Shown here: in pieces, positions 6,054-43,458 of the stretch
How positions within the stretch are numbered: the first letter of the stretch is position 1
Layout of the letters: each line of letters opens with the position of its first letter
DNA from: Doris montereyensis
Taxonomy: Eukaryota > Mollusca > Gastropoda > Nudibranchia > Dorididae
NCBI GenBank assembly: GCA_037039925.1
Contig: JAXRKP010001063.1
Coordinates: 1 to 64,000, forward strand
Direction of reading: 5' to 3'
Length of the DNA stretch: 64,000 bases
The notes under the pieces: model-generated
The model's database searches: none
What the model saw: the letters and a program-made list of their open reading frames with translations, nothing else
What the model was told of the DNA's origin: nothing
Translations under genes and position numbers: made by a program

Positions 6054-8899
<2,846 letters not shown>

Positions 8900-16218: not shown

Positions 16219-17810
16219 ATGGCCAACATCTTACATGAACTTGTAGGTAAGTGTCTTAAGATTTTTAGATTTGTGCATATTAGGAAAAGTTTAAATTATA
16301 TTTATCTTATTTTTTAAACCTGCATGAGTTTGTCAGAAGTTGTAGCGATCTCAGTTTTCTAGATCTACGACTCCGTTGACCAAGTTTATGAAGTCGCTCT
16401 TTTTTTTAGTCCTGTGAAGGAAATACGGACTGATGATGTCGATGATATGATATTTAAACTCAATATTTATAGTAATGGTTCATCAATATTATGTTTATTT
16501 AAACTGTATTCCATTCAAGAAGATGAGTGTTTTTTCACTTTTTCTGAATCGAGACATAATGGCTACCGGTACTGAAAGTTGGGTCTATCGGGTCTGAACG
16601 GAAGTGAAGATCTGTTGGGCAAATTCATTTTTGTTGATTGCATGGGTAGGAGGGTAATTTCTTAGTCTGATTTATCATGAATGGCTGTGTTTTATTTTTA
16701 TTTTTAAGGTAAATTACGATTGATTTGTTTATAATTGGCCCCTGCCACTTTATGTCAAGCCATAGAAACTCCATGGTTCTACGTAGCTTCTAAAATCTAG
16801 CACTGCAGTAAGCTGTGGAAAAACCCACTTTTCCAAATTGACTTATTTAATCTACAAAGGCTAATAGTAGCATATGAAGTCTTAAAATACTGAATCTAGA
16901 TACCGGTATCTAGTGTAGACTTGTCGGCTTACTAAAGTTAGAGGCATATCATATTATCAAGATTTAAACACTCAAATTATTATTTTTTTGCAGAGGATCA
17001 TGACTCGTAATTTATTTTGTATATTATTTTACAGCGGATGACAGCTGCCAAACAATGCTGAACAGGTTCACCAGACCGTGGGGTAGACGGCCAGATGTGA
17101 CTCCACCGCCCCTCACCAACAGACTACTTGTGCAGCTTTGGGACATCATGCTTTGCAATGGTGACGAGCAGAAGAAGGTAATTTTTATTATTATAACATT
17201 GTGGTTGGTGGTTGGGTGGAGAGGTCAGTAAGATGAACTTTGTGACACAATTCAACATGAAAGAAATAGATTTATAATCTATTTGATTAGTGGTCTTTCT
17301 TCTTCCTATAAGACCACAGCTTCAGTATTGAAGATTAATGTGATCGTGTGCTGTGTGGTTTTGGTATAACTGAGATATTAAACTATTAATATTAATATAT
17401 TCCATTACTTAGTTATTAAACACGTCTAACTATATTATTATAGATCTGATAATTTATTATTATTATATTATTACAGTTATTTATACCAGAAATGTTAACA
17501 ATATCTTAATCTGCCTAACTTGCTCTTAATTTAACATATGATATTTGCTTCTGCTACTATTCGGGCTCTTTCTTTTTCTATATAAAAAAGCCAAACAGCA
17601 GACCTCGTAGCACACCTCAAATCTCATAGAAACAAATTTTTGTATCTGCTATGAGGCATGTACGCTGAATTATCTTGAGTACATAATATATATATGCATA
17701 TTTTTTTCCTTTTGTTTTCCAAGGTTATTGACTGGTTTGGCTACCTCCACAGTGGCAACTCTGTCCTCCATCAAGCTTCTCCTGGTCCTCTGCGAAGCAT
17801 CATATATTGA
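16219..17810 (+). CDS. Three-exon small gene, N-terminal part of an unnamed mobile gene family
   Basis: Exons 16219-16246, 17035-17177 and 17724-17810 join in frame to 85 codons. Exon 1 is 28 nt (MANILHELV, then G|GTAAGTG). Exon 2 (acceptor TTTTACAG|CG, donor AAGAAG|GTAATT) carries RFTRPWGRRPDV and LTNRLLVQLWDIM. Exon 3 (acceptor TTCCAAG|GTT) reads VIDWFGYLHSGNSV and ends in TGA. Intron phases agree throughout. Two other loci (40861 and 42723) also start with a 28-nt exon ending G|GTAAGT, and 20591 has a RPW-P-LPYRLQQL exon, so this is one family. The stop in exon 3 may be native, or an inactivating change before the coiled-coil part downstream. Function is unknown; no catalytic motif is visible here. 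Confidence 0.5.
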
Positions 17811-17899
17811 CATATCGCAATGCTGTGCAGTTATTTGAGGGCCCATGGGATGTGGTGATTAGTTATTTAGATTTAATTTTGATTTCAATTTTATTTCAG

Positions 17900-19300
17900 A
17901 TACTCTATCAGCTGCCAATATTGACAGGAATATTTTGTTAGGTCAATACTCAGAATTTTCAAAACCCTTCAAATTTCAAACTTACAAACAGCATAGTTGT
18001 AGAATTAGACAAATTTCAAAAGAACAGAGATTTAATCCAAATTTTATGGCAAATTGGGTCTTTTACTTAATTAATGAGAGTGAAGCAAAGGAACAAGATA
18101 GTAAAGTCATTAAAAATCTAATCCAAAGATTAGGCAAATTAAGGACTAAAAAATTTGAACTGCAAACCCGAAAAAACCTGATAATTATCAAAAGTTTCTA
18201 GATGAAGAATTTTGCTTTAACGAAACAAATCCTAAACGTAAACAATCTAACCTTCCTAACAGTTCCATCAGTTCATCAAACAAAAGTGTAGAGAAAAAGT
18301 AACATTAGTAACAATAACCCTGTAGTCATTGAAAAGTCTAAAATGTGTAACACTGAAACTGAACTTTAAAAAATCAAAATAGCCAAGTTTGAAAAGGAAC
18401 TTGAAGATTTTAAAAAGTGAAAGAAGAGAATATGAATCTGAAAAGAGAGAACCAAAATCTAAAAAAGAAAAATTTCCAGAAACAGTATTGAATTAGCCAC
18501 CACCAGTTGTCATTTGCAAAATTCAGAAAGAAAAAGAAAAGTTGAAATTGACCAAAAAGATAGTGTCATTAATTATTTTAGAAGCCACCTTGGAAATAAA
18601 GAAAAGAAAGGTAAAAACTTTGAAGAAAGAAACAAAATTAGTCAATAAATGCAATGATAGTCTGAATGAAAAGATTTTCAAACAAGAAACTTCATGAAGT
18701 AGAAGTAAAATCAGGAGAAAATAATGCTTATGCAGATAATATTAGACAAGCTACAATTCTTTTACGGTCTGAAGCAGGAGTGGCTTCTCATAAAGTTAGT
18801 GAAGATATGAGAATAGTAGGTAAACATCTTTTTGATCATAACTTTGAAACATTGCTATCAACCCAAACATGCCTTAATATGAATGCTGAAGGTTTAGTTA
18901 TTTCAAATTTGCAAGTGGCAGAAAAAATATTAGATTCTAAAATATTACTCTCCATTTAGATTATGAATGGAACATCAAAAAGTAGTAAATCATCAAGTCA
19001 CCTTAGATGAGGAATCTAAATCAGTTAAAAATGAAATCTCAATCAAATTAAAACAGAACATGGTAGAAAGTCAACAAAAGAAAATTGACACGGCAGCAGC
19101 AGATTTAGAAAACATGGATAGATAACAAACGGAAGTGTTTGTGAAAGTAGTCAACAAGTAGGCATATTAATAAAAAATCTTTCAACAACTGGTAAATCTA
19201 AAAAACAAATAACAGAAATAATCAAAGTCAAAGATAAAATTCTAACTCTGTCAGGTACTCAAGAAGATTTAATCTCAAATTTAAAACAATTTTTTAATTA
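17900..19300 (+). pseudogene. Degraded coiled-coil plus core region of the unnamed mobile gene family
   Basis: Begins after a possible acceptor (TTTATTTCAG) near 17899. 17935-18201 is open and continues as Lys/Glu-rich coiled-coil-like sequence with stops to about 18660. 18666-18959 is open with YADNIRQATILL, EDMRIVGKHLF and STQTCLNMNAEGLVISN, then VAEKILDSK. From memory this order (coiled coil, then a core with a conserved invariant Ser-Thr-Cys-Leu region) matches large uncharacterised, multi-copy proteins of molluscs, cnidarians and echinoderms. In those proteins a conserved acidic DGT motif usually follows; here that region has decayed. Probably the continuation of the gene at 16219, on the same strand. 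Confidence 0.45.
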
Positions 19301-19750
19301 GTGTTTCTTTTTTTTTAGTCTGAAATAAAAATTGAAATTATGGGTCTAGTTAATGAAGTTTTATTTTGACTTTGTAACATATTTGGAGGCCTTTTTTTGT
19401 TTTATGTTGATAAATTCATATTTATTGGTGATATATCTGGTAGGGGAAAACTTTCTTGTGATAATTTTTTTTTTTACTGAATTTTTAAAAATTGTAAATA
19501 TTTTAATAAACTGAAATCATGTCATAACCAAGCCATTATGTGTAGTTATGTTTCTCTTTTGATGTTGCTTATCTAATCAGGAATGGATAGAGCTCCTTCT
19601 CCTCTTTCATTTGATACCAAGATCGACAAGATTGGTTAAAAAGTAAAGATTTTAAAAGGTTTTGAAATTCCCATTTTTTCTGTTTTTCGGCCCCATTAAC
19701 GAAAAACGTGCGAAATTGATTTCGCGGCATATTTTCTAAGAGTAAAGAGT
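19301..19750. other. No feature seen; 3' flank of the previous gene copy
   Basis: AT-rich sequence up to the long terminal repeat at 19751, with no coding signature. Confidence 0.4.
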
Positions 19751-20222
19751 AGTTATCCCAGACTACCGCTTAGCAGCGGGCTTAATTTGCCTTCATCGAC
19801 CGAAAATAAGGTCGTCTTAATCCCTCTATCTCTCTTTTAAATCAAACTCAACCTACACAAAAAACTACTAGGTTATACTTAAAGATCTGCTCTGTACGAA
19901 GATCTAAGCGGTTTTTACTAGTATATTAGTAGTAAAAGAGATATATAGCTCTTCAAAAATAGCTAACTTAACATTGTACATCGCCGTTTTCATCGCTCAA
20001 AAATGGCTGGCACACACTATAAATTCATGTGTTTCTCCAGTGCCTCGGCGTCGTTTGAACTTACCTATCGCTTTGCAATGAAGTGTGTTAAATTAGCCTT
20101 TGAATGAGCTTTCCTGTGCTATCAATTTCTCCAAGCTCCGATATCTATAAATAGCTTTAAACTTAGCGGAAAGTTGACCTATTTAGAGTCGGGAAAATCT
20201 GATCTTGCCGATTGAAAATGAC
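19751..20222 (+). repeat. Long terminal inverted repeat, left arm
   Basis: Starts AGTTATCCCAGACTACCGC and contains TTTTCGGTCGAT-type sequence (inverse: ATCGACCGAAAATAAGG). Near-identical, inverted, to 23195-23690. Confidence 0.75.
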
Positions 20223-20400
20223 TAAGAGTATTGTAAGTAAGAAAGATTTAAAAGATAGGAGAAAAAAAAAGCTGACATTTTAGATGCAATTATTTCAGAT
20301 GGTGGATTGTGTAAGACTAGAGAAGATTTGAATAACTTAAGGAAAAAATGGAACCGCAGAAAGTTTAAGAAATCAGATAAGATACAGGAAAATATTTTTG
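20218..20400 (+). pseudogene. C-terminal tail fragment of the unnamed family
   Basis: After a one-base shift it reads VSKKDLKDRRKKK then ADILDAIISDGGLCKTREDL, ending FG* at about 20404. The nucleotide stretch GTAAGTAAGAAAGATTTAAA also follows the C-terminal coding of the copy at 22618 (inverted), so it is the extreme C-terminus of the same protein. It sits directly against the left terminal repeat, as if internal sequence was deleted. Confidence 0.45.
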
Positions 20401-20590
20401 GATGAAAAAAGCTTAAAAGTAACAGGGACCATCAATACACTGTATACATGTAGTTGTTGATTGATAATATTGAATGATTTTAATTTTGTTATATATACAT
20501 GATGTAATTGTGAGTTCCTCGAGCTTGTGTAATTTTGTCTAAATTTAATATATTCCTTATTCTTTCTTTTCATTTTATGTCGTGTATCCG

Positions 20591-20749
20591 GCTGCGGGGT
20601 CGACTTTGAGAGACATTTCTATTACTACTATGAGCCGTCGTCCCTGGGATATACCATACCCAAAGCTGCCATATCGTCTGCAACAACTGATCTCACAGGT
20701 TTCAGCTGAATTTCACAACACAAAGATAAGGCAGGCGACAAACAGTTGA
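20591..20749 (+). pseudogene. RPW-type N-terminal exon of the unnamed family
   Basis: Open stretch with SRRPWDIPYPKLPYRLQQL, aligned by eye with exon 2 of the gene at 16219 (TRPW ... LTNRLLVQL). A closely similar segment lies at about 41885-42010. No partner exons are directly linked in this rearranged copy. Confidence 0.4.
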
Positions 20750-20799
20750 CCTATTAGCTCTTACTCTTATAATTATTATTTAATGTTTTCTGTTTTAGA

Positions 20800-21420
20800 G
20801 ACACAAGTACTAAGTAGGCAAAGTTTCATTGATTTATCTTACCATTTAACATTTTTATAATGAAAAACCTGATTTTTGCCAAAATATTTTCACGAGCGTA
20901 GTTATTAATTTTTTGCCCGCAACTCTGTATATTTAGTTCCTATTATGATTAAACCCACCAGAATTGTATTTCTTGACCCTCAAAGCATAAGTATAAGTAT
21001 GCAAAGTTTCATTGATGTATCTTTGCGTTTAAGATTTTTATGATGAAAAACCTGATTTTTGTCAAAATATTTTCCCAAGCGTAAATTACTATTTTTTGCC
21101 CACAACTCTGTTGATTTAGTTCCTATCATAATTATAACACCATAAATGTATTTCTTGACCCTCAAAGCATAAGTATGTGAAGTTTCATTGATGTATCTTA
21201 CCATTTAAGATTTTAATGATGAAAACCCCGATTTTTGCCAAAATATTTTCCCGCGCGTAAATTATTAATTTTTGCGCACAACTTTGTTTATTTAGTTCCT
21301 ATCATAATTAAAACACCAGAATTGTATGTCTGGACTCTCAAAGCATAAATATGCAAAATTTCATTGATGTATCTTACCATTTAAGGTTTTTATGATGAAA
21401 AACCTGATTTTTGGGGCTCA
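20800..21420. repeat. Tandem repeat, about 180-bp units, four copies
   Basis: Each unit carries GCAAAGTTTCATTGATGTAT, then a TTTTGCCAAAATATTTTC-type block, then TTAGTTCCTAT. Units start at about 20817, 20999, 21177 and 21353, a period of about 176-182 bp. The related locus at 42080-42350 has about one and a half units. Confidence 0.85.
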
Positions 21421-21989
21421 AAATATCTTCCCGAGCCCAAATTATGCTTTTTGCCCGGTTTGGTGGTATAATAATTCAGGGAGAATATTTCTTCTATGTC
21501 TCTGAAAAAAATTGGGCTAACTGTCTGGCACCATATCTGCATTTAAGGGAAATTATATGGTCTTTCTATGATTTATGGCATGTTTATGTACTCCCAAAAA
21601 ATGCCATTTTTTGACAATTTTGACCAAAATCATGTGTCGCACAATGTATTTTTTCTCTATTTTGGTGCTGTGTCACAATAAATATGTGAAAGATAACAGT
21701 CTCATTGCTTGTTTTTTTGCTTTTCTATGTGTATGGCTGACGTATGCATGTAAAGTATTTAACTACTCAAAAAGAGGCATCACTAAACTTATTGTAGTAA
21801 AGGAAAACTAGTCCTTTGATGTTGTCTTCCGTGAGTCTCCGCCTTCTAGAAGACAAAACAAGATTGTACAAAAGAAAAACCCCGCCAGCATCAGCTGACG
21901 AGCATGTTGAGAAGGCGTACCAGGACGCCAGTGCAGCGAAGGCAGGAACATGATCTGCCGCAGACTTCCAAAAAAAGGTCAGATCAATG

Positions 21990-22370
21990 TTCCCAGTAAC
22001 GGACTTCTCACTGCAGTGGGCCCCAGTTTCTCAACATATCTCCTCAACTCATGCTGGGGAAGATCAGCAAAGTCCGGAATAGCGGTGTATTGAGAGATGT
22101 CACAAGACATAAACGGAATGTTCTTCGGGTTGAAAATCCTAATCTCTTTTAAAAAATTGACACCAGGCTGCCCTTCCTTCGACATGCCCTTTCTTGCAGT
22201 AGCATGCCAGAACATGGCATTAAATGATAGAACAAACTTGTCAGCTTGGCCAAAAGGTTTCTGAATGATTCTCCCAGTAGGTTCAGGATGTGCGACATGC
22301 ACGTAATGTGGGTCGATTTGGGGGAATAAGCCCGCAAAACATCAGTGTATGCCTGGAGATGAAAAAAATA
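21990..22370 (-). pseudogene. hAT transposase middle fragment (CGGBP1-like family)
   Basis: Reverse-strand reading gives STHITCMSHILNLLGESFR, then in a shifted frame KPFGQADKFVLSFNAMFWHA and NFLKE...NPKNIPFM. This H-I-C-x-S-H-I-L-N-L pattern followed by FVLSFNAMF is typical of the central region of hAT-like proteins related to CGGBP1. Both ends are missing; one frameshift is visible at 22.26 kb. It complements the N- and C-terminal pieces at 25.3-25.8 kb but lies on the other strand. Confidence 0.6.
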
Positions 22371-22617
22371 AAAATCAAGATGCTTGAATGAAAATCCTTT
22401 ATTTGATAAAAATGTGTTCACATTTTGTTTGAGATTAAGAAACAGAAAACTGAGCGCTTTAAGCATATATATGCTAAGGCAACAAAAGCATTAAGCCAAC
22501 CTACTATTACCAGCAGTGAGCCATTAGCGCTAATTGGAATCCACATCCCCCCCCCCTCCCGGCTATACAGTGCTTTTAGTCCTATCTTTTAAATCTTTCT
22601 TACTTACATCTTTCTCT

Positions 22618-22940
22618 TATTCTCCTGCATTTTGTGTTTTACTTTCTCACGAACCTGGGCTTCACAATGTTTACTTTGTAACACTAATTTTCTGAATTCT
22701 TTTTTTTGGCTGCCTCTAAAATTTTATTTTGCCTTTTTTCACGCAAACTACAAACCAATGTACAGTCTTATTAATATTATGCTTCCACATATTGTCTAAT
22801 TCTAAATCACCAAACAATCGTTCTCCAGTCAAATTTGTCAACAATCGATAAGCAAATGAATTGGGTCATATTATGTATCTTAATATTTAAAAGAAAATAG
22901 AGGAAATACTTACCACACATTTCAAGAAGATCATATCCAT
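22618..22940 (-). pseudogene. C-terminal domain copy of the unnamed family, degraded
   Basis: Reverse strand, start at 22938-22940 (MDMIF-like after a base change), with the G|GTAAGTATTTCC donor still present. Downstream parts match the better copy at 42346-42723, including MTHLL, LTGERLF and the basic KVKHKMQENKRK end, but with several indels and a missing central segment. Confidence 0.55.
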
Positions 22941-23033
22941 TTTTGAATGAGAAAAGAAGTTTATCTAGATCTAAAATCGGAATGAAGTAGAGCGGGAGAG
23001 TGGTGTTGTTCTGGTGCTGATCGCTAGGCAGTC

Positions 23034-23063
23034 AGTTTCAAAGTGAAAGTGAAAGTACTGAAA
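23034..23063 (-). promoter_or_regulatory. GAAA-repeat motif upstream of the 22.9-kb gene copy
   Basis: GTTTCAAAGTGAAAGTGAAA followed by GTACTGAAA: GAAA cores at two-base spacing about 100 bp upstream of the start at 22940. Conserved in the copies at 40736 and 42818. Confidence 0.35.
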
Positions 23064-23194
23064 TCTCGAGAACGGGCGTAAAGGGAAGGCACTACATTTG
23101 CTTTCATAGATGGCGCGACGCGTTGATTCAACCAATCATAGTCATTTTTGGACATGATAACCGGAAGAGGACACTGTATTTGAGGATATAAATT

Positions 23195-23690
23195 TCTTAG
23201 TCATTTTCAATCGGCAAAGATCGGATTTTCCCGACTCTAAATAGGTCAACTTTCCGCGAAGTTTAAAGCTATTTACTATTTATAGATATCGGAGCTTGGA
23301 GAAATTGATAGCACAGGAAAGCTCATTCAAACCAAAGGCTAATTTAACACACTTCATTGCAAAGCGATAGGTAAGTTCAACGCATCGCGCGAGGCAATTG
23401 GAGAAACACATGAATTTATACTCTATAGTGTGTGCTAGCCGTTTTTGAGCGATGAAAATCGGCGATGTACACCGTTAAGTTAGCTATTTTTGAAGAGCTA
23501 TATCTCTTTTACTACTAATATACTGGTAAAACCGCTTAGATCTTCGTACAGAGCAGATCTTTAAGTATAACCTAGTAATTTTTTGTGTAGGTTGAGTTTG
23601 ATTTAAAGAGAGATAGAAGGATTAAGACGACCTTATTTTCGGTCGATGACGGCAAATTCGCCCGCTGCTAAGCGGTAGTCTGGGATAACT
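23195..23690 (-). repeat. Long terminal inverted repeat, right arm
   Basis: Inverse of 19751-20222 and same orientation as 39839-40265 and 43010-43458. Ends TAGTCTGGGATAACT. Confidence 0.75.
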
Positions 23691-24955
23691 AGTAATAATA
23701 TAATAATGATTAGGAAATCTAGATTTTCTAAATCTAATACATAATCTAGATCTATACAGTATGTAATATTAATTTAGGTTTTTAATCGCTCGCAACACAG
23801 TTGAATAGATCTAGGTCTAGTTTGAGCCGCAGACCACTCCTCGCTCGCCAACCACGCCATGCGGCTTCGCGATGGGACCAAAACATTGTTGACCCAATTC
23901 CGGGAAGCTGGCCTGTTACTACTGTTACTAAAGTGTTACTGGTGGTAGTGTTAGTAGTAGTAGTGTTAGTAAGCACGCCTCGACCTCAAGCTTTGCCTCA
24001 AGCCATCAGGTTTTTTTTATTGTACTGAACTACTCTGTTTCTAACGCATTCCGGTAGTTGATTTGTCTACATTCGCATTTTCTGTACTGACTGATTATTC
24101 AGTTTTGTTTTGTTTATTTGCTGATTTTAGTTAGGCCTGTTTCGAATGTTTCATATAAAACAGTTTACTTGTGTAAACAATGTTTTCTGACGAGTCGGTT
24201 TATAAGCGTGTAAACTGTATGCTCAATATTTAGCATATATCTTATGCTTATTGTTATTCAAATGTACAACACTCGACGGAAGGAAACACGGAAGCCTTAC
24301 GGCAATGCCATAGACAAGCTAGAGCTATTCGTGGGCACGGCAACAATGAGGACATGAAGACAGCAATTTTTGCCAGCTTGTAAATCATGTAACAGTAACA
24401 TGGCTACTTTACAGACGACAACCCTCAGCATCGGGACTGCCCGCCTGGCATCGACAAATGATGATCTTCTATGCTGTTGAATTATGTACTTCATTCTCAT
24501 GACTTTTCCTCCTCAGAATGTAATTATATATGGAAAATACTCCTTATAAGATACTATCAATAACACGCCTAAATATTGACATTGTGCAATAAAATTTTGA
24601 GTTGCGGAAATACAAAATTGCTTTTTTTCTCAAAACTAGTTTTTTTTTTGTATACTTTTCGCTAAAAAGTAAATGTTAAAAAACTTACTCTTAGATTTGA
24701 ACCAAATTTGGTGTATAACTTCTTTATATGTGCGCCTAGTTTGTATAAGAGGCTTTTTGGGAAATAATTGATGATGATAGGGATGTTATTGTTATTAATG
24801 ATTTGGTGTAAAAAAAATGGAGTTTTGGGGATTTTGAAAGTTGATTTTTTCTCAGTAAGTAGATCAAATATCGAAAATCTGGTCTATTACTAGTACAACC
24901 AAGACAGTCCTCTTTACTACCTGTATCTCAAATTTGGTTGACTTTCCTTGGTCTG
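23691..24955. other. No supported gene; one dispersed repeat
   Basis: 23875-23986 shares ACCAAAACATTGTTGACC, GGCCTGTTA and AGTAAGCACGCC with 47213-47275. It includes a GTTAGTAGTAG-type run. The remainder has no recognisable coding or RNA signature. Confidence 0.5.
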
Positions 24956-24996
24956 TCCGCGGAAAATCGCGGCACTTGCAGCCGCGATTTTTCGGA
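24956..24996. repeat. Hairpin upstream of CGGBP1-like ORF
   Basis: GAAAATCGCGGC and GCCGCGATTTTTC form a stem with a short loop, with an added TCCG/CGGA clamp and a three-base bulge. May be a subterminal structure of the hAT element whose N-terminal exon starts at 25269. Confidence 0.6.
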
Positions 24997-25268
24997 CTTA
25001 CCGCAACGGAACAGCAATTTTGACAAATGCCAGCGATTTTTTTGCATTTTTCATGATTTTTCCCTGTTATGGAGTCGTATATATGCTAAACATGGGAAAA
25101 TGCTACTGCCACTTCCACGCAACACTATTAAAATTTCATGAGTAACTTCCTTGACAACACAGGAAGTAAATAATTCATTCTTTGTTTAAATTTAATCTGA
25201 TTGACTCAACCTGCATCTCTTCATCTCGATCAAATTTACGCTATTGACTATTCTGAGTATCAAACACC

Positions 25269-25462
25269 ATGCCTAATGATACCTCAAAGAAAGGCTCTAA
25301 GACTACAGCCCGGGACCGTCATAGGCAGTTTCTAAAGACTACTTATGTTTCTAGTAGTAAATTGTTTTGCGATGCCTGCAACATCATTCTAGACCATCAC
25401 AGAAAATCATCTGTGGATAATCACATGAGGACTGAAAAGCATGCCGAGCGCTTAGACTTAGA
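25269..25462 (+). pseudogene. CGGBP1-like zinc-finger exon of a hAT element
   Basis: Begins MPNDTSKKGSKTTARDRHRQ, with a zinc finger in the pattern KLFCDACN...RKSSVDNHMRTEKH (C-x2-C then H-x4-5-H). This matches the BED-like DNA-binding finger of CGG triplet repeat-binding protein 1, a protein known to derive from hAT transposases. The exon probably ends at 25462 with a GA|GTAAGT donor; the TAA just after is then intronic. The next recognisable part is the C-terminal hAT piece at 25642, so the middle of the gene is deleted. It could be a young host zinc-finger gene, but the adjoining dimerisation remnant favours a deleted transposon. Confidence 0.6.
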
Positions 25463-25641
25463 GTAAGTTAGGCTAAATTTAAATCTAACATGAATTGCAC
25501 AAATATCACCCAATCACCTTGGACTTGGACCCCAAGCTGTGAAGAATCATTCCACCACTTCCATAGACCCGGAGCTTTTTGGACGTCTTGCGAGGAACAA
25601 CTTCCCACCCCATCAAATTTGGCATTGCGTTATAAATGTAT

Positions 25642-25790
25642 ATGTATGCCACTGTCAATTCAGTAGATGCAGAAAGAGCTTTCCTCTATAATTTAATATT
25701 AAGTGACAGAAGAAGAGGGTTAAATTTAAATGAAGAGTCTTCAGAGCCTTCTCTTCCTGTACTACAACAAATTTGTTGGGAATGACTTTC
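25642..25790 (+). pseudogene. hAT C-terminal dimerisation remnant
   Basis: Reads TVNSVDAERAF then LYNLILSDRRRGLNLNEES, the S-x-D-A-E-R-x-F signature of the hAT dimerisation region, and a frame-shifted LFLYYNKFVGND tail. It belongs with the finger exon 180 bp upstream. Confidence 0.65.
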
Positions 25791-26224
25791 TTTTGTAGTG
25801 TAGTTGATCTCATCTCATTATAAACCTTGAGTCTTCCAATATAAATATATAATACTCGTAAGCTCAACATTGAAATACAAAGGATTTTTATTCGGGTGAA
25901 GTTTGGCTCTGTAGACTCTCTTCATTTAACATCTCTTAATTATAATTTCATATTTTTTTTGTACTTTATTTTGTTTTCTTTTACTCCCATTCGGAGAATG
26001 GATGTTCTACTAGTAAGTTAGAAATAAATATTAAAACAAGAAATAATTGTTAATATTTTGACTTTAGCGATTTGAAAAACATAAACAAAATCCAATATGG
26101 CCACTGTTACCAAGGCAACCAAAAATTCAAGCGACAAAAAAAACTATTCCATTTCAATCACAGCATGATACCCTTTGTATGTGTGAAGTTTGAACATTAT
26201 ATGTCTTGTATTGAGTATTTTCCT
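25791..26224. other. No feature seen
   Basis: AT-rich sequence ending with a run of cytosines at 26240-26253 inside the next fragment's start. No coding signature. Confidence 0.5.
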
Positions 26225-27935: not shown

Positions 27936-27959
27936 TATATTATAAATCCATTATCTTCA

Positions 27960-28609: not shown

Positions 28610-28617
28610 ATTACTAC

Positions 28618-31419: not shown

Positions 31420-31427
31420 ATTACTAC

Positions 31428-33778: not shown

Positions 33779-34274
33779 CAGTGCAATCCCCCGATAACGA
33801 CATCTCCGAATAACGCCAATCCTACAATAGCCAAATGGATCCTTGGTCCCGATTTTTTTGCTATACATGTATATCATTAGTAAAAAAAACCTCCGAATAG
33901 CGATGCGAAACCTCCCAATAACGACATAAGTCTAGCCGTAAACACTACATTTGACATGAAAATTTGATCAATATTGACAAAATTGAGACGTATTCTTAGC
34001 AATGAAAACACTTCTTTTTCGGCCAACGTGTGAGATTATTTCTCCATCTCTGAGGGTACCAAGACCGTGACAACCAGCTAGTAAACCCATCTGCTGGCTC
34101 TACCAACCCCACCCCCAAACACCGGCCCTTTTCAGGACCCCACCACATCTTCCCAATTGACTAGCCTCACTCGTAACACCCCTTTTAATCACATTTTAAA
34201 AATTCTGAACAACGACATCCCCGATAACGACATGATTGTTCGGTACTAGCATGTCATTATCGGGGATTGCACTG
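33779..34274. mobile_element. Tigger/pogo-like MITE
   Basis: Begins CAGTGCAATCCCCCGATAAC and ends ATTATCGGGGATTGCACTG, with TA on both sides (33777-33778, 34275-34276). Internal repeats of CGAATAACG/CCGATAACGACAT near both ends. No ORF. Ends and target fit the pogo/Tigger branch of Tc1/mariner. Confidence 0.85.
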
Positions 34275-34997
34275 TAGTAAAATTCCTTTTAACGACGTTG
34301 TAAAAGACTTAGGGTGTTCATTGATTCAGATCTTTCCTTTAGAAGTCAAGTAAATAACATCATCAAAAAATGTATAAAAATAATAATAAATCTTTTTGTC
34401 CTTTTCAGGCAATTCATGTTAGTTAGGTTCACATAAATCATTTTACACTTCACAATCCACATAACAAAGCGAACTAAGGGTGATAATAATGACGATGGTA
34501 AAAAACAACAAACAACAAAGATAGCAATGACAACAACAAAAGTTAATCACAATAATAGTGGTGAACATAGTAGTCGCAGAAGTAGTACTAGCATTCGTAA
34601 TATTTCTAGTAGTTGCCAACATTATAATAGATGGTGAAATGAACAGGCAAAAATATCATAGTAATATAAGTAAAAGTAGATACAGAAAATAATTACACAA
34701 TTTGAGGATTTACATTTCCCCCTCCCTCCCTCTCTCTCTCAACCGGCATTCCATCATCAACCAAGACAACCATGATAATGATATTATAATATTGTCAATG
34801 TTCTGCAGAGATTTTGATGATTTATATATGATTTTGAACAGACTTTATAAAATACGACACTTCTTGTCTGAAGAAGTATCCTCCTTGTGAATTCTCTTGT
34901 CTTGTCAAATCTTGACTATTGCAATGCACTTTTGGCCAATATTTCAAAAGATACAATGAAGTCCCTCCAGTCACAGTTTCTTTCCCGGCTTTTGATT
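34275..34997. other. No gene; interior of the TTTTCACCG-bounded insertion
   Basis: AT-rich low-information sequence with CAACAA-rich and CTCTCTC tracts near 34500 and 34725. Nothing coding. Confidence 0.5.
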
Positions 34998-35054
34998 GGC
35001 TGATACATACGGTGATAATAGCCTGGTATATTTTCACAAATGCGGTGAAAAAAT

Positions 35055-35394
35055 AGTCACTCGAAATCTTTATCATCCAAATATTTCATTTCATTTAACA
35101 AAAATGTTTTGCCTAGTAATCCATCTTTTATAGTAATAGAACTAGATCAAGCACATTATCTTGTGCTAGGCAAAATCAAAAATGTGTCCCTTAATTTTTT
35201 ATATATTATGCTGATAAGGAATTGAAAAAAATACAAAAGGAAGCAATAATACAATTTGTTGAAAATCTGCGCTTACAAGGAGCGGTACGGATCAATTTCA
35301 ACAGTTCAATAAAAAAATCAAACATAACATTAACAACGTCATTGCTTTCTTCATCCACATTTTCCTCACCAATTCCAGAAAATATATGGCTTGA
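35055..35394 (-). pseudogene. P-like transposase, segment between THAP and catalytic domain
   Basis: Reverse strand reads NVDEESNDVVNVMFDFFIEL, then RDTFLILPSTR and GLLGKTFLLNEMKYL, matching the helical stretch and L-P-S segment that precede the IDEIHV motif in P-type transposases. It continues the gene at 33365 across the insertion and is cut on its other side by a piggyBac fragment. Confidence 0.6.
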
Positions 35395-36430
35395 TTAAAC
35401 AGCTGTGGTACCATAAGGCCGAACCGGAAGGGCTGGTCTTTTCCAAAGGACAGTAGACAGAAGAAAGGGAGGTGAGGATGAAGCAAAAGGGGAAATTAGT
35501 TGCCGTTCAGTGGACTGATAAAAGACAGGTGAGCGTATTATCCATGAACAACAACCCAAGAATGACAACTGTCACTCGTCGCGCAAAAGGAGGGCCTGTT
35601 GACATACCAATTCCCACTCCAGTGTCCTCTTACAATGCTGGCATGTTCGGTGTGAATCTCAACGATCAACATCGGGCTTATTATCCTGTTGGGCGACCAG
35701 GAACAAAATGGTGGAGATATTTATTCAACTACCTCATCCAAATTTCCGTCATCAACTCGCACATTTTGATGAGGCAAGCTCGCCCGACGATAATCGGTAT
35801 TCAACTTCTCAAAACCATCTGCAGTTTCGGACACAAATGGTCAAATCTCTTATCGCCCCAGGAAACAATTCCAGAAGAGCTCCAGATGCTCCAACTGTTG
35901 CTGGGCAGCTCAGGCCATACAGTGCTGACCATAGCCTGTGCAAAGATGCGTGGCAGGAAAAGAAGATGTTTTCAGTGCGCTGAGGATGGTAGCAAAATGC
36001 CCAGTGGCCGCACTCGAAACGATCACCGGTTGCCCGCTTTACAATGCGCATCTTCATGGAGGCAAATGTTATTCAAAATTTCATGAAAATTTGAAACATT
36101 GAGGACATAAACATTTTTAAACAATGAAGATATTGTTGGATGAGACTCGAAAACGTTGTGTTGTGTAGTTTCACTTGGATATTAAAAATAAATTTTGGTT
36201 AAAAACTTTATAAAAGTGATTATTTTCTGTAAGTATATTCAATTACCTATTTTTTTATGTATTGTTTGTTGGATAATATTTATATTTAGGGGTCTAAATC
36301 TTTTTTATTTCTGAAACACGTCTAGTGGTGAAAAGAGTTATTTCCCTTTGTAGGCACAGGATTAACATAGCTGAAACTAGGTTAGGCACACAGACATGGT
36401 CAGGGGATCGCTTAGGCAGGAAAGGGTTAA
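35395..36430 (+). pseudogene. piggyBac-like transposase C-terminal half with 3' terminus
   Basis: From 35420 the frame reads RPNRKGWSFPKDS, then VAVQWTDKRQVSVLSMN, GVNLNDQHRAYYPVG...KWWRYLFNYL and ends with a Cys/basic region (RKRRCFQCAEDG). The canonical G-V-D-L-x-D motif here is GVNLND, an apparent loss of the catalytic aspartate. The 3' terminus CTTAGGCAGGAAAGGGTTAA ends at TTAA (36427-36430). The 5' half and left terminus are missing. Located inside P-like coding sequence and on the opposite strand. Confidence 0.8.
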
Positions 36431-36645
36431 CCACAGATCCGTGAAAAAGTCACAATTTATTTTTACACTGAAACAAATTTCAGGTCCACTGAGTTCATTT
36501 AAATCCACAACATACAAAATTACACAGTTGTCTTCCACAAGGCAGTATATTTTTCTGTTGCACTTCCTTCCAGCTTCGAATATTGGTCTGTAGATTGTCT
36601 TTTAAGTCAGAAAACGACAGAATTTTGCCATTGTCCAAAAAATTC
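36431..36645 (-). pseudogene. P-like transposase, post-THAP linker
   Basis: Reverse-strand frame from about 36645 gives NFLDNGKILSFSDLKDNLQ then IRSWKEVQQKN and ends where the piggyBac terminus starts. It lies between the THAP domain and the segment at 35394, so it is probably the coiled-coil linker of the same gene. Confidence 0.45.
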
Positions 36646-37065
36646 TTAAAAAGGATTCTTCCTCTCTTTGGCACAACTTCCGTCTCTTTCTATTTGGACT
36701 TTGCCTTTCACTTTCACAGCAAGGTGTTGATGACAGGAATGAAGGCAAATTTGGAAATAATGAAGGGCAAGCGCCCACTTTAAGTTTGCCCTCTGTCTTG
36801 AAATTTTCACATCTGGATGTCCATCTTTTCCTGTAAGAATATCAAATCTTACGATATCACTTTCATGAAAATGTTTTTCACACACTACTGAATGTTTGGT
36901 GACAGTGACAGTGACAGTCAAGTCTTCTCTCTGAATTTTCCTAACCCAAATGTCACGTTCCTGTGGGTCCTTTGGAAATGAAAAACATGACAGAGACTCT
37001 TTCTGGGTCTCATTCACTCGTTTATAGTTAGTATCACAACCAGGAATACAACATTTGTTGATCAT
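36646..37065 (-). pseudogene. THAP zinc-finger domain of the P-like transposase
   Basis: Starts at 37065 with MINKCCIPGCDTNYKR, followed by FSFPKDPQERDIWVRKI and VVCEKHFHESDIV. This is the C-x2-4-C, then W, then C-x2-H pattern of THAP DNA-binding domains, ending with a Phe-rich box. THAP domains recognise P-element ends. The frame continues into linker sequence and is in the same orientation as the catalytic parts at 31.6-33.4 and 35.1-35.4 kb. A (TGACAG)n-like run (36895-36920) encodes TVTVTVT. Confidence 0.85.
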
Positions 37066-37184
37066 CCTGCAAGTTTGTAGTATTTTTTCGCAATGTCCAG
37101 CGGTTGTCAGTGCCTGAAAAGAAAAAGAAAAAACATCAGATTAAATTGTTTCACCTTAAAATAAGTTAAAAAAGGGTTTCGATC
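37066..37184. other. P-like element 5' flank
   Basis: Between the THAP start codon and the TTAA at 37185, where a piggyBac 5' end starts. The P-element terminal repeat was not found. Confidence 0.3.
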
Positions 37185-37560
37185 TTAACTCAATCACTCA
37201 ATCCCACCTACAGCACCCGTAGTCGCCCGTTCGCTAGAGCCGTGCGCCTACCTAGATCGCCCATAGTCGCCCGGTGACGTAGCACTTTCGCTTTCGTTAT
37301 TTCAAACCTTTATAAATACCGGAAATCTCGTTCAATTATAATTTCACGAGACCTCCGTTGTAGGTGCCATATCCGGGTATTTTTAGGGCTTTTCCTTTCG
37401 TTTCTACGTTGCTTCATTGCGAAGCTATCCTCGCTTGAATTTAGACGCAATTTTTCTACCAAAATCGACCTCGCGCTTTACAATGGACGACCTGTTGAAT
37501 TTGTTCCGTAATGTGACGGATGATGGAGACCTACACGGTCACGATTATAATCCTTTAACT
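37185..37560 (+). pseudogene. piggyBac 5' end: leader and N-terminus
   Basis: Starts at TTAA (37185-37188). The leader up to 37482 is an inverted near-copy of 15233-15535. Start codon 37483 gives MDDLLNLFRNVTDDGDLHGH then DYNPLT, interrupted at 37561 by another TTAACCC terminus. The start is chosen from conservation with the copies at 12527 and 15232. Confidence 0.7.
37283..37303 (-). promoter_or_regulatory. GAAA-repeat motif in piggyBac leader
   Basis: Reverse strand reads GAAATAACGAAAGCGAAAGTG, with GAAA cores at two-base spacing, 180-200 bp upstream of the start at 37483. Confidence 0.3.
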
Positions 37561-39604
37561 TTAACCCATTGCTGCCTATTGCGACCCAATGCGACGGCAA
37601 AAAAATGCACTAAGTAAGAATAATAAGATATGCCTATTGCGACCGAATGCGGGCGTAATCATACACTTCATACAGTGTAGTAGTAGAATCGCGTAAAGTA
37701 TCGTACTCATCTATTTACCAGCAGTTTGAAATCGCTCTTCAGAGGGAGAAAGCTAAGCTTTATTTTGGTATGCAGTACATTGCATTCGATCAACTGGTTC
37801 ACGAGTTACGATTTTTTAAAGTTTACTTGATCTGTTTCACAAATCTAGCTTCGATTTTACAACCTTTGAGCACGATGGCGTTTCAAATACTAGAAAACTG
37901 GCTTACACTATAGATCTTCAGGCCGACACTGGAAAAGAAGGAAATAGGCCTAGGCCTAATGTATTGTAACGTTAGGTCTACATCTAGATCTAGACGATCT
38001 AGAAAATGATAACGAATCTGACATAGACATTACGCCCAACTTGTTTGACTTGGCTGACGATGAGATTGGTGATGACAATGAGGTGGGAATGAAAACACAG
38101 ACTGGTCTGATGAAGTAACTAACATTACTGTGGATGATTTTAGTGAATATTCACTATTCAGGGCCTGTCTATGATCTTCCAGAAGATGCATCTCCCTTGA
38201 CTATTTCAAACTTTTCTTTAGTGACGATATAATGGAAAATATGGTCACCCAGACCAATCTCTATGCTGAACAAAAGCAAGAAGCCAATGGGGCGAGGGAT
38301 CCATATTGGAAACCTTGCACTTTGGAAGACATCAAGAGGTACCTCTACATAAATATTATGTTTGGGTATCACAAAATGCCAGAATTACGGATGTATTGGT
38401 CAGAAGACAAGACTCTACGCGTGGAAGCAATCGCTGATTGATTGTGGATTGGGCCGTCAACGGTATCAAAAGATACATCACAATATTTTCACCTCAACGA
38501 TTCCACGAATCTACGTCAGCGTGGGGAATGATCCCCTTTTCGAAGTACGTCCCATCATCGATGCTATCCGTGCCAAGTGTTCATCCCTATACTTACCTGA
38601 GAGGGAAATCAGCGTTGATGAGGCCATGATTGGCTATACCGGCGACTACACTTCAAACAGTTCATACGGAACAAGCCGAGCCCCTAGGGAATAAAGATTT
38701 GGTGTGCTGCGGAAGCTAAAAGTGGCTACCTCTTGAATTTTCTTTTCTACACTGGAAAGGACAATGATCCAATGCCTGGTGGTGTGGGACATCATGTCGT
38801 GCTAAATGTGGCATTCCAATACCTGGATAAAAAATCACAGTCTCTACTTCGACAACTATTTCTCCTCCGTTAGGCTCAGCGATGATCTCATGGCTCATCA
38901 CACATACAGCTGTGCCACAACTAGGCCAAACAGAAACGGCTGGCCATTCAAAAATGCCCAAAACAAAAGCGCGGCGATGTGCGGATGAAACAATGGGGGA
39001 ATCTCGTCGCCACCCAGTGGACAGATAAGAGGCAGGTCAACCTACTGTCCACCAACGTTGATCCAGTCATGACAACGGTCAATCGACGTACCAAGGATGG
39101 TGTGATTGAGCAAGCTATTCCACAACCTGTGCTCACAGTCACATACAACAACTTCATGGGTGGGGTAGACCTTGCAGATCAGCACAGATCATATTACCGG
39201 ATCGGCCGTGCCGTAAAGAAATGGTGGCGGTATGTTGTGTGGTTCACTATGCAGATCAGCATGGGCAACGCTTCTGTGAGCTGGAAACATTCTCTCTTCA
39301 GACTTAGTGTTGCTCAGGACTTGTTGAAATCCTGCGGTACCAAAAATACTTCAACTAATGGGACTCAACCTGCAGTCAGGGCCCTGGCCGCTCCACCATC
39401 CAGTCATCATCTGGACAAGTTCCCAGGCCGTCACAGACGGTGCTTTCAATGTGCACAGGATAAGAGGAAAACTGCAGCGGTCGCACTCCAGAAACTATAT
39501 ATGGTTGTTTTGTCTGTAATGTGCATTTGTGCAAAGGGCATTGCTATGCCAAATTCCATGATGAGCTGGCACAATAAAGAAATAATAGAGGCAAAATTGC
39601 CTTG
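37561..39604 (+). pseudogene. piggyBac-like transposase
   Basis: TTAACCCATTGCTGCCTA at 37561 is a piggyBac terminus. Acidic coding (LENDNESDIDITPNLFDLAD) starts near 37990. The core follows: MVTQTNLYAEQKQEANGARD, LYINIMFGYHKMPELRMYW, ISVDEAMIGYTG (first catalytic Asp), NHSLYFDNYFSSVRLSDDL, then from 38979 QWTDKRQVNLLSTN, GGVDLADQHRSYYRIG (Asp present) and KWWRYVVWF. It ends with RRCFQCAQDKRK and a stop at 39603-39605. About five frameshifts or stops disable it. 38979-39605 is a clean 208-codon frame. Whether 37185-37560 and this part were one gene interrupted at 37561, or two elements, is unresolved. Confidence 0.85.
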
Positions 39605-39838
39605 ATTTCGGTGGAAAAATCAAAATTTCTGACTTCAGAATTTTTTTTACCTACTTATTATTCATCTGGGAAATTGAGATGGTGTGTTTATGAAAGTACA
39701 ATCATTTTGTGATTTTTTGGTACATTTTCAGAGCTTTTGGAGCTGATTATCATATTTTAAATGCCATTTTACTTTTTTAGTTCGAAAAAATTTGGAGTTA
39801 TGCCCCTTTGCTTAGGCACATACACTGTTACTACACTC
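39605..39838. other. piggyBac 3' flank
   Basis: Contains GGAGTTATGCCCCTTTGCTTAGG-like sequence near 39792, similar to the flank of the 10-kb piggyBac. The terminal TTAA is lost at the junction with the long repeat. Confidence 0.4.
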
Positions 39839-40265
39839 TAAATAGGTCAACTTTCCGCGAAGTTTAAAGCTATTTATAGATATTGGAGAAATTGATAGCA
39901 CAGGAAAGCTCATTCAAAGGCTAATTTAACACACTTCATTGCAAAGCGATAGGTAAGTTCAACGATCGCGCGAGGCAATTGGAGAAACACATGAATTTAT
40001 AGTGTGTGCCAGCCGTTTTTGAGCGATGAAAATCGACGATGTACACCGTTAAGTTAGCTATTTTTGAAGAGCTTTATCTCTTTTACTACTAATATACTAT
40101 AGTAAAACCGCTAGATCTTGTTACAAGCAGATCTTAAAGTATAACCTAGTAGTTTTTTGTGTAGGTTGAGTTTGATTTAAAAGAGAGATAGAAGGATTAA
40201 GACGACCTTATTTTCGGTCGATGACGGCAAATTCGCCCGCTGCTAAGCGGTAGTCTGGGATAACT
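39839..40265 (-). repeat. Solo arm of the long terminal repeat
   Basis: Same orientation as 23195-23690 and 43010-43458, ending GTAGTCTGGGATAACT. No matching left arm is present. Confidence 0.75.
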
Positions 40266-40620
40266 ATTACTAGGTACTCCAAACCCAAATTGAATTAATC
40301 AGAAAAAGATTATCCAATGTAGATATCCTGAAAGAGTTTTTTATTCTGATTTAAATGATACCAAAATCAACATGATGGGTTTATTTTCACGGAAGTTATG
40401 CCCTTTTGAATTTCGCGCAAAATGGGTCAAAATATGGTCTGGCGATTTACGACTCAAAAGGCCATTTTCAGACCGCTATTGTATAATAACAAATTAAGCT
40501 AACCCCTTGAGAACCACTAAAGTAAGAGATAATGTTGCTGACAGTCAGTGACAGTAGGTCCAATTTTTTTCAGGATGCCTGAAAGTATACTTTTTAAGTT
40601 ATACTAGATTTATATACTCG
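40266..40620. other. No gene seen
   Basis: Starts with TAGGTACTCCAAACCC, shared with 15565. Contains GGAAGTTATGCCC near 40388, related to piggyBac 3' flanks. Nothing coding. Confidence 0.4.
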
Positions 40621-40735
40621 AATACAGTGTCCTCTTCCGGTTATCATGTCCAAAAATGACTATGATTGGTTGAATCAACGCGTCGCGCCATCTATGAAAG
40701 CAAATGTTGTGCCTTCCCTTTACGCCCGTTCTCGA

Positions 40736-40767
40736 GATTTCAGTACTTTCACTTTCACTTTGAAACT
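40736..40767 (+). promoter_or_regulatory. GAAA-repeat motif upstream of the 40.86-kb gene
   Basis: Reads as its inverse CAGTACTTTCACTTTCACTT then TGAAAC, about 100 bp upstream of the start at 40861. Same motif as at 23034 and 42818. Confidence 0.35.
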
Positions 40768-40860
40768 GACTGCCTAGCGATCAGCACCAGAACAACACCA
40801 CTCTCCCGCTCTACTTCATTCCGATTTTAGATCTAGATAAACTTCTTTTCTCATTCAAAA

Positions 40861-41254
40861 ATGGATATGGATCTTCTTGAAATGTGTGGTAAGTATTTCC
40901 TCTATTTTCTTTTAAATATTAAGATACATAATATGACCCACTTGTTGCTTCGATTGTTGACAAATTTGACTGGAGAACGATTGTTTGGTGATTTGGAATT
41001 AGACTATGACATGCATGAGCGTAGAAGAGCTAATTTACACTTAAGGTCCACTATCAGTATGTGGAAGCATAATAAGACTGTACATTGGTTTTGTAGTTTG
41101 CGTGAAAAAGAGCAAAATACAATTTTAGTGGCAGCCAAAAGAATTCAGAAAATTTAGTGTTACTACTGTTACAAAGTAAACATTGTGAAGCCCAGGTTCG
41201 TGAGAAAGTAAAACACAAAATGCAGGAGAATAAGAGAAAGATGAAACCAAAGTA
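40861..41254 (+). CDS. Unnamed mobile gene family: first exon plus C-terminal domain
   Basis: The frame 40861-41157 is open. The first 28 nt (MDMDLLEMC + G) end in a strong donor G|GTAAGTATT at 40889, so exon 1 probably splices there and the read-through to MTHLLLRLLTNLTGERLFG is either intron-spanning coincidence or a fusion made by internal deletion. The downstream part has DYDMHERRRANLHLRSTI, MWKHNKTVHWFCSLREKEQN and (frameshifted after 41150) the basic tail VREKVKHKMQENKRK. I take this as the C-terminal domain of the uncharacterised invertebrate repeat family also seen at 16-19 kb. It is nearly identical to the inverted copy 42346-42723. Confidence 0.5.
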
Positions 41255-41860
41255 ATTTCCCAATAGGGACCACTACGAGACAATAGCTCGACGCAATATT
41301 ACACCGTTATTAGATCTCAGATCGAAAAAAATATTTTTTGTTGTTGATTGTCTCATGGTATTCTCACTCTCATTTAGAGTTACCCTATGATTTTTTTCGT
41401 GTCTTTTACAGAATATATGGTGGTAGGAATACGTTTCTTTCATGAATCCAAAAAACGGCGCTTCTACGCATTTTTCAACTGTTTTTTCAGCTCTTAATGT
41501 GTGTTCATTTGGTATCAATTTGTTCCATAATAACGAAAATCTGAAACCTCCCTCACGTGATCACTGCAAAGATAAAATATTTAGGACTCGCCAAATTTTC
41601 TTTGAACAATTCTCTTCCACATGGAATTAAAGAAAACAGAATAAAAGGTCGTTGTCTAAATTTAATAAAAGAGGAAATGTGGTCTGTCTGGATTGCTGAC
41701 GTTCACACCCAAAATATTTAAAACACACAAATTTTCAATATTATGTTTTTCATATCTGCGATGTCAAAGTCGTGATTCATCAATTAGACGGAACATTAGT
41801 GAAGAGTTCAAGTTATCATTGGGTCGACCTGCCATATTGTAATTGTGAGACTCGATATCT
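41255..41860. other. No gene seen; spacer between inverted copies
   Basis: AT-rich sequence without recognisable coding or repeats; it separates the two inverted gene copies. Confidence 0.4.
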
Positions 41861-42349
41861 AAATTTAATATATTACTATTCTTTCTATGTATCCGGCCGT
41901 CGTCGTCCTGGGATATACCATACCCAAAGCTGCCATATCGTCTGCAACAACTGATCTCACAGGTTTCAGCTGAGTTTCACAACACAAAATAAAGGCAGGC
42001 GACAAACAGTTGACCTATTAGCTCTTACTCTTATAATTATTATTTAATGTTTTCTTTTTAGAGACACAAGTACTAAGTAGGCAAAGTTTCATTGATTTTA
42101 TCTTACCATTTAACATTTTTATAATGAAAAACACTGATTTTTGTCAAAATATTTTCTGAGCGTAGTTATTAATTTTTTGCCGCAACTCTGTATTTAGTTC
42201 CTATTATGATTAAACCCACAGAATTGTATTTCTTGACCCTCAAAGCATAAGTATAAGTATGCAAAGTTTCATTGATGTATCTTTGCGTTTAAGATTTTTA
42301 TGATGAAAAACCTGATTTTTGTCAAAATATTTTCCCAAGCGTAAATTAC
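41861..42349. repeat. Copy of 20530-21100 (RPW exon plus start of the 180-bp tandem repeat)
   Basis: Shares CTGGGATATACCATACCC, GCTGCCATATCGTCTGCAAC and the GCAAAGTTTCATTG units with the 20.5-21.4 kb region. The tandem array is shorter here. Confidence 0.7.
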
Positions 42350-42723
42350 ATCTTTCTCTTATTCTCCTGCATTTTGTGTTTTACTTTCTCACGAACCTGG
42401 GCTTCACAATGTTTACTTTGTAACACTAAATTTTCTGAATTCTTTTTGGCTGCCACTAAAATTGTATTTTGCTCTTTTTCACGCAAACTACAAAACCAAT
42501 GTACAGTCTTATTATGCTTCCACATATTGATAGTGGACCTTAAGTGTAAATTAGCTCTTCTACGCTTATGCATGTCATAGTCTAATTCCAAATCACCAAA
42601 CAATCGTTCTCCAGTCAAATTTGTCAACAATCGAAGCAACAAGTGGGTCATATTATGTATCTTAATATTTAAAAGAAAATAGAGGAAATACTTACCACAC
42701 ATTTCAAGAAGATCCATGTCCAT
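42346..42723 (-). CDS. Unnamed mobile gene family: first exon plus C-terminal domain, best copy
   Basis: A 125-codon open frame on the reverse strand: MDMDLLEMC, LTNLTGERLFGDLELDYDMH, MWKHNKTVHWFCSLREKEQN, then VLQSKHCEAQVREKVKHKMQ and NKRKM*. Lys-rich and helical at the end; one Cys pair; no signal peptide or membrane segment. As in the sister copy, G|GTAAGT follows codon 9, so the true product may be spliced. The related genomic copy at 22.6 kb continues (one base shifted) into VSKKDLKDR, which suggests the M* end is a truncation and the natural protein is longer. Function unknown; a DNA-binding role for the basic tail is only a guess. Confidence 0.5.
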   Translation of the reverse strand: MDMDLLEMCGKYFLYFLLNIKIHNMTHLLLRLLTNLTGERLFGDLELDYDMHKRRRANLHLRSTINMWKHNKTVHWFCSLREKEQNTILVAAKKNSENLVLQSKHCEAQVREKVKHKMQENKRKM

Positions 42724-42817
42724 TTTTGAATGAGAAAAGAAGTTTATCTAGATCTAAAATCGGAATGAAGTAGAGCGGGAGAGTGGTGTTGTTCTGGTGC
42801 TGATCGCTAGGCAGTCA

Positions 42818-42847
42818 GTTTCAAAGTGAAAGTGAAAGTACTGAAAT
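42818..42847 (-). promoter_or_regulatory. GAAA-repeat motif upstream of the 42.7-kb gene
   Basis: GTTTCAAAGTGAAAGTGAAA followed by GTACTGAAA, about 100 bp upstream of the start at 42723, as in the other two copies. Confidence 0.35.
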
Positions 42848-43009
42848 TAGTGAAATCTCGAGAACAGGCGTAAAGGGAAGGCACTACATTTGCTTTCATA
42901 GATGGCGCGACGCGTTGATTCAACCAATCATAGTCATTTTTGGACATGATAACCGGAAGAGGACACTGTATTCGAGTATATAATTCTCTTAGTCATTTTC
43001 AATCGGCAA

Positions 43010-43458
43010 AGATCGGATTTTCCCGATTCTAAATAGGTCAACTTTCCGCGAAGTTTAAAGCTATTTATAGATATCGGAGCTTGGAGAAAATTGATAGCAC
43101 AGGAAAGCTCATTCAAAGGCTAATTTACACACTTCATTGCAAAGCGATAGGTAAGTTCAACGCATCGCGCGAGGCAATTGGAGAAACATGAATTTATAGT
43201 GTGTGCCAGCCGTTTTTGAGCGATGAAAATCGGCGATACACCGGTAAGTTAGCTATTTTTGAAGAGCTATATCTCTTTTACTACTAATATACTAGTAAAA
43301 CCGCTTAGATCTTCGTACAGAGCAGATCTTTAAGTATAACCTAGTAGTTTTTTGTGTAGGTTGAGTTTGATTTAAAAAGAGATAGAAGGATTAAGACGAC
43401 CTTATTTTCGGTCGATGACGGCAAATTCGCCCGCTGCTAAGCGTAGTCTGGGATAACT
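43010..43458 (-). repeat. Long terminal repeat arm, right side of the 42-kb copy
   Basis: Matches 23195-23690 with small indels; ends TAGTCTGGGATAACT. The coding copy at 42346-42723 sits just inside it, as in the 22.6-23.7 kb locus. Confidence 0.75.

Follow-up and report, generated by a model that had tools for sequence, protein, structure and literature searches.

Remains of a putative hAT-like DNA transposon lineage with 7-bp target-site duplications in the nudibranch Doris montereyensis

What kind of mobile element left the scattered, exon-like pieces found in a 64,000-nucleotide stretch of the nudibranch Doris montereyensis (GenBank assembly GCA_037039925.1, contig JAXRKP010001063.1, positions 1 to 64,000; hereafter the window, which belongs to contig C73 of a 513-Mb source genome in 3,500 contigs)? 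The original prediction, made from the letters alone, was of an undescribed mobile gene family with a first exon of 28 nucleotides (nt), an exon encoding the motif RPW and terminal inverted repeats (TIRs) of about 480 bp. A mobile gene family is supported, and the pieces are very probably what is left of a cut-and-paste DNA transposon lineage with TAG...CTA ends, a 7-bp target-site duplication (TSD) of the form nTnnnAn and a predicted RNase H-fold transposase resembling that of Hermes.

A repeated 2.87-kb element and its gene-bearing relative

The 478-bp arm seen in the window has at least 42 matches in the source genome (40 of 63 candidates were scored), which is beyond chance. Twenty of the matching loci were taken, 10 kb each, one of which (L016) lies where the contig ends at the element and leaves no left flank. 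The arm occurs once per locus except at L023, where it is repeated in direct order, and in most loci it is followed on the same strand by a piece holding exon 1 and the C-terminal part and by an RPW-like piece, neither of which is present at L014. Alignment to L012 defines a sharply bordered unit of about 2.87 kb whose other end differs from the arm. The left end reads TAGTTATCCCAGACTA and the right end, reverse complemented, TAGCTGTTCCAGACTA; by eye the two agree at 13 of their first 16 bases, giving TAG...CTA ends with short inverted repeats. Both ends are present in 19 of the 20 loci (L014 is without the right end; the call at L023 is based on a longer stretch of contig C2691), and identical 7-bp repeats flank the element in 16 of the 18 loci with readable flanks. 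Among the loci with at least six of seven flanking bases repeated, and with a second, false left start in L012 dropped, position 2 is T in 17/17 and position 6 is A in 16/17, while the 7-bp target sequences differ from copy to copy.

Complete, uninterrupted copies are 2,829–2,949 bp long and 95.6–99.2% identical (median 97.6%; n = 15 of 20, leaving out L014, L016, L023, L024 and L028 as incomplete or interrupted). In none of the 15 does a single open frame, read without splicing, take in both the EAQV and the DGGL part of the gene piece, so that a defective unit moved in trans would most likely be the source from which the family spread. About four tandem copies of a 176–183-bp unit lie in the 3' half (L012:2142-2833) and are possible binding sites. 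At two further places (L034:233-454 and L035:189-410) only element positions 1–222 are inserted, with 6/7 flanking bases repeated by eye; the site is the same on the two contigs and looks like one insertion in duplicated or allelic DNA, perhaps a one-ended event, and the 6 kb read of each contains no family-protein match.

A composite of the window pieces matches the predicted proteins P0001 (E = 4.5e-21) and P0002 (8.7e-19), both of which contain the C-terminal part. A relative of these two lies at L023 on contig C2691, inside a separate element of 5,769 bp (C2691:183547-189315) that has ends TAGGTACCACAA, 13/16 matching end bases and the TSD CTCACAG. This element is nested in a copy of the 2.87-kb element with its own TSD, ATCAAAT, and 18 of the 20 loci carry the uninterrupted target with at most two mismatches. 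The gene of the nested element corresponds to the whole stretch of the family protein between RPW domain and C-terminus, and its product, compared in translation, belongs with predicted proteins about 1,000 residues long. The two elements are linked by a C-terminal gene piece that is 44% identical to P0001 and P0002, by their TAG..CTA ends and by the same TSD pattern.

The protein family and its predicted fold

The core and C-terminus of the inserted gene, used as a query with a threshold of E ≤ 1, matched 88 proteins, and even the weakest match stood at 1.9e-8. Those named at NCBI, all annotated as uncharacterised or hypothetical, come from Aplysia, Elysia, Plakobranchus, Gigantopelta, Littorina, Nucella, Mercenaria and Lineus, which we take to be gastropods, one bivalve and one nemertean; the relatives so far are mostly in snails. 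The Pfam column is blank for 87 of the 88, P0077 carrying PF07496. No match reached the cut-off in direct Pfam scans of two sets of 10 proteins (some shared), an NCBIfam scan of five proteins gave nothing useful, and scans of viral contigs gave no result. An alignment-based second search found 19 proteins, 14 of them new and one fungal (P0104 of Lentinula detonsa), which aligns over 548 columns with a probability of 97% and E = 5.6e-11. In P0104 a long insert separates the second Asp from a CMHK motif that by eye is CxxH-like.

The RPW-type domain, coiled coil, core and C-terminus stand in a single chain in the full-length members P0092, P0093, P0095 and P0096, and together with the order of the tblastn and blastp matches this supports the view that RPW exon, coil, core and C-terminal part belong to one protein, into which exon 1 fits by phase. 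In P0003, P0004, P0007, P0014, P0092, P0095, P0096 and P0097 a CxxC pair, noted by eye, directly precedes the coil and may be one half of a metal site. Near the N-terminus of the distant member P0098 (residues ~60–68) there is a stretch DVECNPGP, which resembles a 2A ribosome-skipping peptide.

Structure prediction gives the core an RNase H fold, the very fold that had been proposed as a check, interrupted by a large helical insertion as in Hermes. The nearest solved relative by predicted structure is this hAT transposase, which the sequence profiles tried did not reveal; the earlier view that no named superfamily fits therefore holds for those profiles and fails for the predicted structure. 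The N-terminal region is predicted to be all-helical, with the RPW domain and a second helical unit before the coil. In P0003 numbering, and counting the rows with a letter at each column among 52, the conserved residues are D383 (38/39), D467 (45/46), C499 (45/47), H502 (46/47) and E771 (48/48), that is, predicted catalytic D, D and E with a CxxH after the second D. C499 is the only Cys column conserved in at least 85% of at least 30 rows, among the columns of P0003, which lacks the RPW part. E771 falls within one residue of Hermes E572 as reckoned from alignment coordinates; we take E572 to be catalytic, and the Hermes catalytic residues and their order, as used in the comparison below, are likewise our assumption. 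A PDB sequence search with the family profile gave one chance match (E = 0.21), and hhalign against the single hAT fragment of the window was uninformative (probability 0.2).

Copies and neighbouring elements in the window

The 28-nt exon-like starts, each ending in G followed by GTAAGT, could be read where they had been predicted, at 16219 (+), 40861 (+) and ~42723 (−), with a degraded one at ~22940 (−). The first of them opens a decayed member of the family, whose pieces are listed here; E-values for these pieces, and for the RPW-like piece below, come from small local databases, tblastn having been run relaxed.

16219..16246, plus strand: first exon, 28 nt, MANILHELV plus 1 nt, donor GTAAGT (sequence reading)
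17035..17177, plus strand: RPW exon, N-terminal domain (tblastn P0081/P0093/P0095, E 0.002–0.003; blastp P0081, 0.002)
17875..18153, plus strand: second N-terminal segment (tblastn P0094, E 1.4e-5; P0092, 1.9e-4)
18154..18690, plus strand, approximate limits: coiled-coil stretch in broken frames (three-frame translation with stops; position fits the coil of the predicted models)
18693..18941, plus strand: first part of the core domain, ahead of the catalytic strands (tblastn P0075, E 1.1e-13; P0051, 3.5e-13)
18976..19008, plus strand: second core strand, short piece VNHQVTLD (short tblastn segment, P0028 and P0012)
19128..19286, plus strand: C-terminal end, joined after internal deletion of the catalytic core (tblastn P0039, E 1.2e-4)

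The first exon continues in phase into the second (ELV-A-DD, by eye like SLVDDD of the homologue P0077). Matches to the RPW exon are singly weak, yet they stand in order with the pieces that follow, and family matches are collinear on the plus strand from 17025 to 19286. In the stretch of 17.9–19.3 kb that had been taken for the core, the N-terminal half, the coil, the core start and the C-terminal end are present and the catalytic part between them is missing: relaxed tblastn gave no convincing match to the second Asp, the CxxH, the insertion domain or the Glu section. The copy is best read from its sequence as a relative that has lost internal sequence and has several broken frames. As its termini, 15889 and 19738 (12/16 end bases matching) were not accepted because no TSD accompanies them and other chance pairs reach 11–12.

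The remaining pieces were placed by comparison with the 2.87-kb element.

19750..21762, plus strand: copy 1, left half, element 1–487 then 1099–2637, with C-terminal piece, RPW-like piece and 176-bp repeats (blastn of the 2.87-kb element)
22574..23691, minus strand: copy 1, right half, element 1148–935 and 887–1, inverse, with degraded exon 1 at ~22940 (blastn)
39835..40266, minus strand: 5' end fragment, element 440–1 (blastn)
40606..41246, plus strand: copy 2, element 479–1118, with the 28-nt exon at 40861 and MWKHNKTVHWF (blastn, translation)
41896..42358, plus strand: copy 2, element 1515–1979, with RPW-like piece and repeats (blastn)
42346..43459, minus strand: copy 2, element 1118–1, inverse, with exon 1 at ~42723 and the outer 5' end (blastn)

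This order marks them as copies, rearranged or nested, in which several 5' ends occur; none has a TSD, and their long inverted repeats are therefore secondary. The arm end AGTTATCCCAGACTACCGC is indeed found at ~19751 (+), as its reverse complement at 23672 and 40247, and in a shortened variant at 43444, and the arms are 91–94% alike across ~430–490 bp (self-BLAST). Translation likewise places MWKHNKTVHWF at ~41059 (+) and 42517 (−) and DGGLCKTREDL near 20300 (+). The starts at 40861 and 42723 do not belong to independent genes, both being arms of a single inverted duplication (repeat search, self-BLAST, blastn). An RPW exon is found in translation at 17035–17177; for the similar piece at 20591 and 41890, which lies downstream of the C-terminal piece and matches the family proteins at best with E = 0.12, identity with that exon is not shown, and it was rejected as an N-terminal exon. 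A Pfam scan of the small window pieces gave nothing useful for the family. The interior of copy 1, 21780–22420 (−), holds a broken transposase-like frame, hAT-like by eye (C..H, SSRRRRLTEDN), one scanned piece of which had no Pfam match.

Other elements share the window. The C-terminal part of an ordinary hAT transposase lies at 6054–6656 (−; PF05699, 2.2e-20; Hermes, 3.8e-9), a THAP domain at 36646–37140 (−; Pfam, 1.5e-15) and a piggyBac-type DDE_Tnp_1_7 at 38925–39605 (+; Pfam, 4.3e-12), with a second piggyBac-like piece by eye at 35457–36086 (+). Reverse transcriptase frames, apparently broken, were noted by eye in the list of open reading frames at 50148–52061 (−, Gypsy-like), 53442–55694 (+, Copia-like) and 57669–58472 (+, LINE-like). 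A separate repeat occupies 15153–15526 and, in inverse orientation, 37196–37562 (92.6% identical, self-BLAST), and positions 1–431 form a 431-bp palindrome, 97% identical to its own reverse complement and related to 61296–61526.

Placement beside hAT and other known transposons

If these remains are those of a cut-and-paste transposon, the N-terminal part of the protein would bind the transposon ends, the coil or the C-terminus may oligomerise, and the DDE site would excise the element, probably via the hAT route with flanking hairpins, before integrating it into the target with a stagger of 7 bp. Both the 2.87-kb element and the copy at 16.2 kb would then be internally deleted passengers moved in trans, and the window copies with 480-bp arms later rearrangements that united several 5' ends.

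Several observations weigh against this account. Movement is read from sequence and none was observed; the TSD length was fixed after the ends had been inspected, and two loci depart from it (L026 has flanks alike at 6/7, within an AT repeat, and L028 at 2/7). In the 5,769-bp element the reading frame of the gene is broken at the GERLFG motif, adjoining the predicted catalytic Glu, so that this copy is probably dead; no copy with both intact ends and an intact gene was found, nor any autonomous element with AGTTATCCC ends, the genome not having been searched by protein. The link between the two elements is not based on shared terminal repeats. No window copy has a TSD, and when the window was scanned for TAG..CTA units flanked by a perfect 7-bp TSD, just one weak pair came up. 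Pairs with at least 10/16 matching end bases numbered zero in the window, as in 19 of 20 shuffles, the other having two.

Whether such a transposon is simply a hAT subgroup, diverged past sequence detection and comparable to the 'hAT7' of rust fungi, is to our minds an even question. The predicted core shares with Hermes the RNase H fold, the large helical insertion domain and the order D, D, CxxH, E, and the short TIRs (13/16 in both elements) are of the hAT kind, in the range of 10–25 bp. The pattern nTnnnAn, with T early in the duplication and A late, mirrors that of Hermes, which in its 8-bp target prefers T as the second base and A as the seventh (PMC8721813). PMC12730594 describes hAT families with 5-, 6- and 7-bp TSDs, so TSD length alone is not new; its rust-fungus hAT7, likened to our family by description only, shares the 7-bp TSD and was classed by transposase similarity, clustering with Ac/Tam3.

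Profile searches point the other way. No hAT Pfam model was among the matches at E ≤ 10 for nine members and the fungal P0104, though the ordinary hAT of the window, serving as a positive control, matches PF05699 and Hermes; nor were hAT families among the 25 of 133 families listed for 52 members. The TSD is 7 bp in 16/18 copies and in the nested gene-bearing element, instead of the 8 bp of hAT. An N-terminal BED-type zinc finger is common in hAT, although not universal, and none was found in Pfam scans that included P0092, P0093, P0095 and P0096 with their full N-termini. With fold, DDE with CxxH and short TIRs on one side and TSD length, profiles and BED finger on the other, the family is described here as hAT-like by predicted structure and is not filed as a hAT member.

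That the lineage is a separate superfamily beside hAT, common to animals and fungi, we hold at slightly under an even chance. The alignment of P0104, which is without hAT domains, and the 7-bp TSDs in two element families speak for it; the predicted structure is nevertheless closest to hAT, and the alignment does not pair the CMHK of P0104 with the family CxxH. The fuller proposal, of a eukaryotic DNA transposon superfamily sister to hAT that molluscs, nemerteans and fungi share and that has a DNA-binding domain of its own at the N-terminus and a stagger fixed at 7 bp, is likewise held at somewhat under an even chance; it could have escaped notice because databases contain its transposase only in the form of uncharacterised proteins matching no Pfam family. 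The lineage was recognised in no open-access description, and, Repbase and Dfam not having been compared, it is not firmly claimed as undescribed. A foldback-type transposon defined by TIRs of ~480 bp, as first proposed, is very improbable and is refuted at the family level: window copy 19750–23691 carries such arms, but they are confined to the rearranged window copies, which lack a TSD, whereas in the 20 genomic loci the arm is never in inverse order and 19 have a different 3' end, with a perfect TSD there in 16/18 readable cases.

A transposon lineage of either hAT-like placement would assign a likely mechanism and a place to many animal proteins now labelled 'uncharacterised', and it suggests that hAT-fold transposases reach well past what sequence profiles catch. 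Dada, as described in PMC3706591, has in common with it a 6–7-bp TSD, a large multi-exon transposase and a motif of the C/DxxH type; it has DxxH where the family has CxxH (C499 in 45/47 rows), targets small RNA genes and carries conserved zinc fingers, CCCC at the N-terminus and CCHC at the C-terminus, beside which the family shows, by eye, the CxxC pair before the coil in several members. The P element transposase is listed in the structure comparisons, much weaker than Hermes. Compared with Hermes itself, the family has an N-terminal RPW/helical region, a long coiled coil and ~1,000 residues, and its Glu motif is mostly GE..FGDLD, against SERTFS. A stagger of 7 bp beside one of 8 bp, with the same T...A target symmetry, would make the two a natural comparison for how a transpososome spaces its two cuts.

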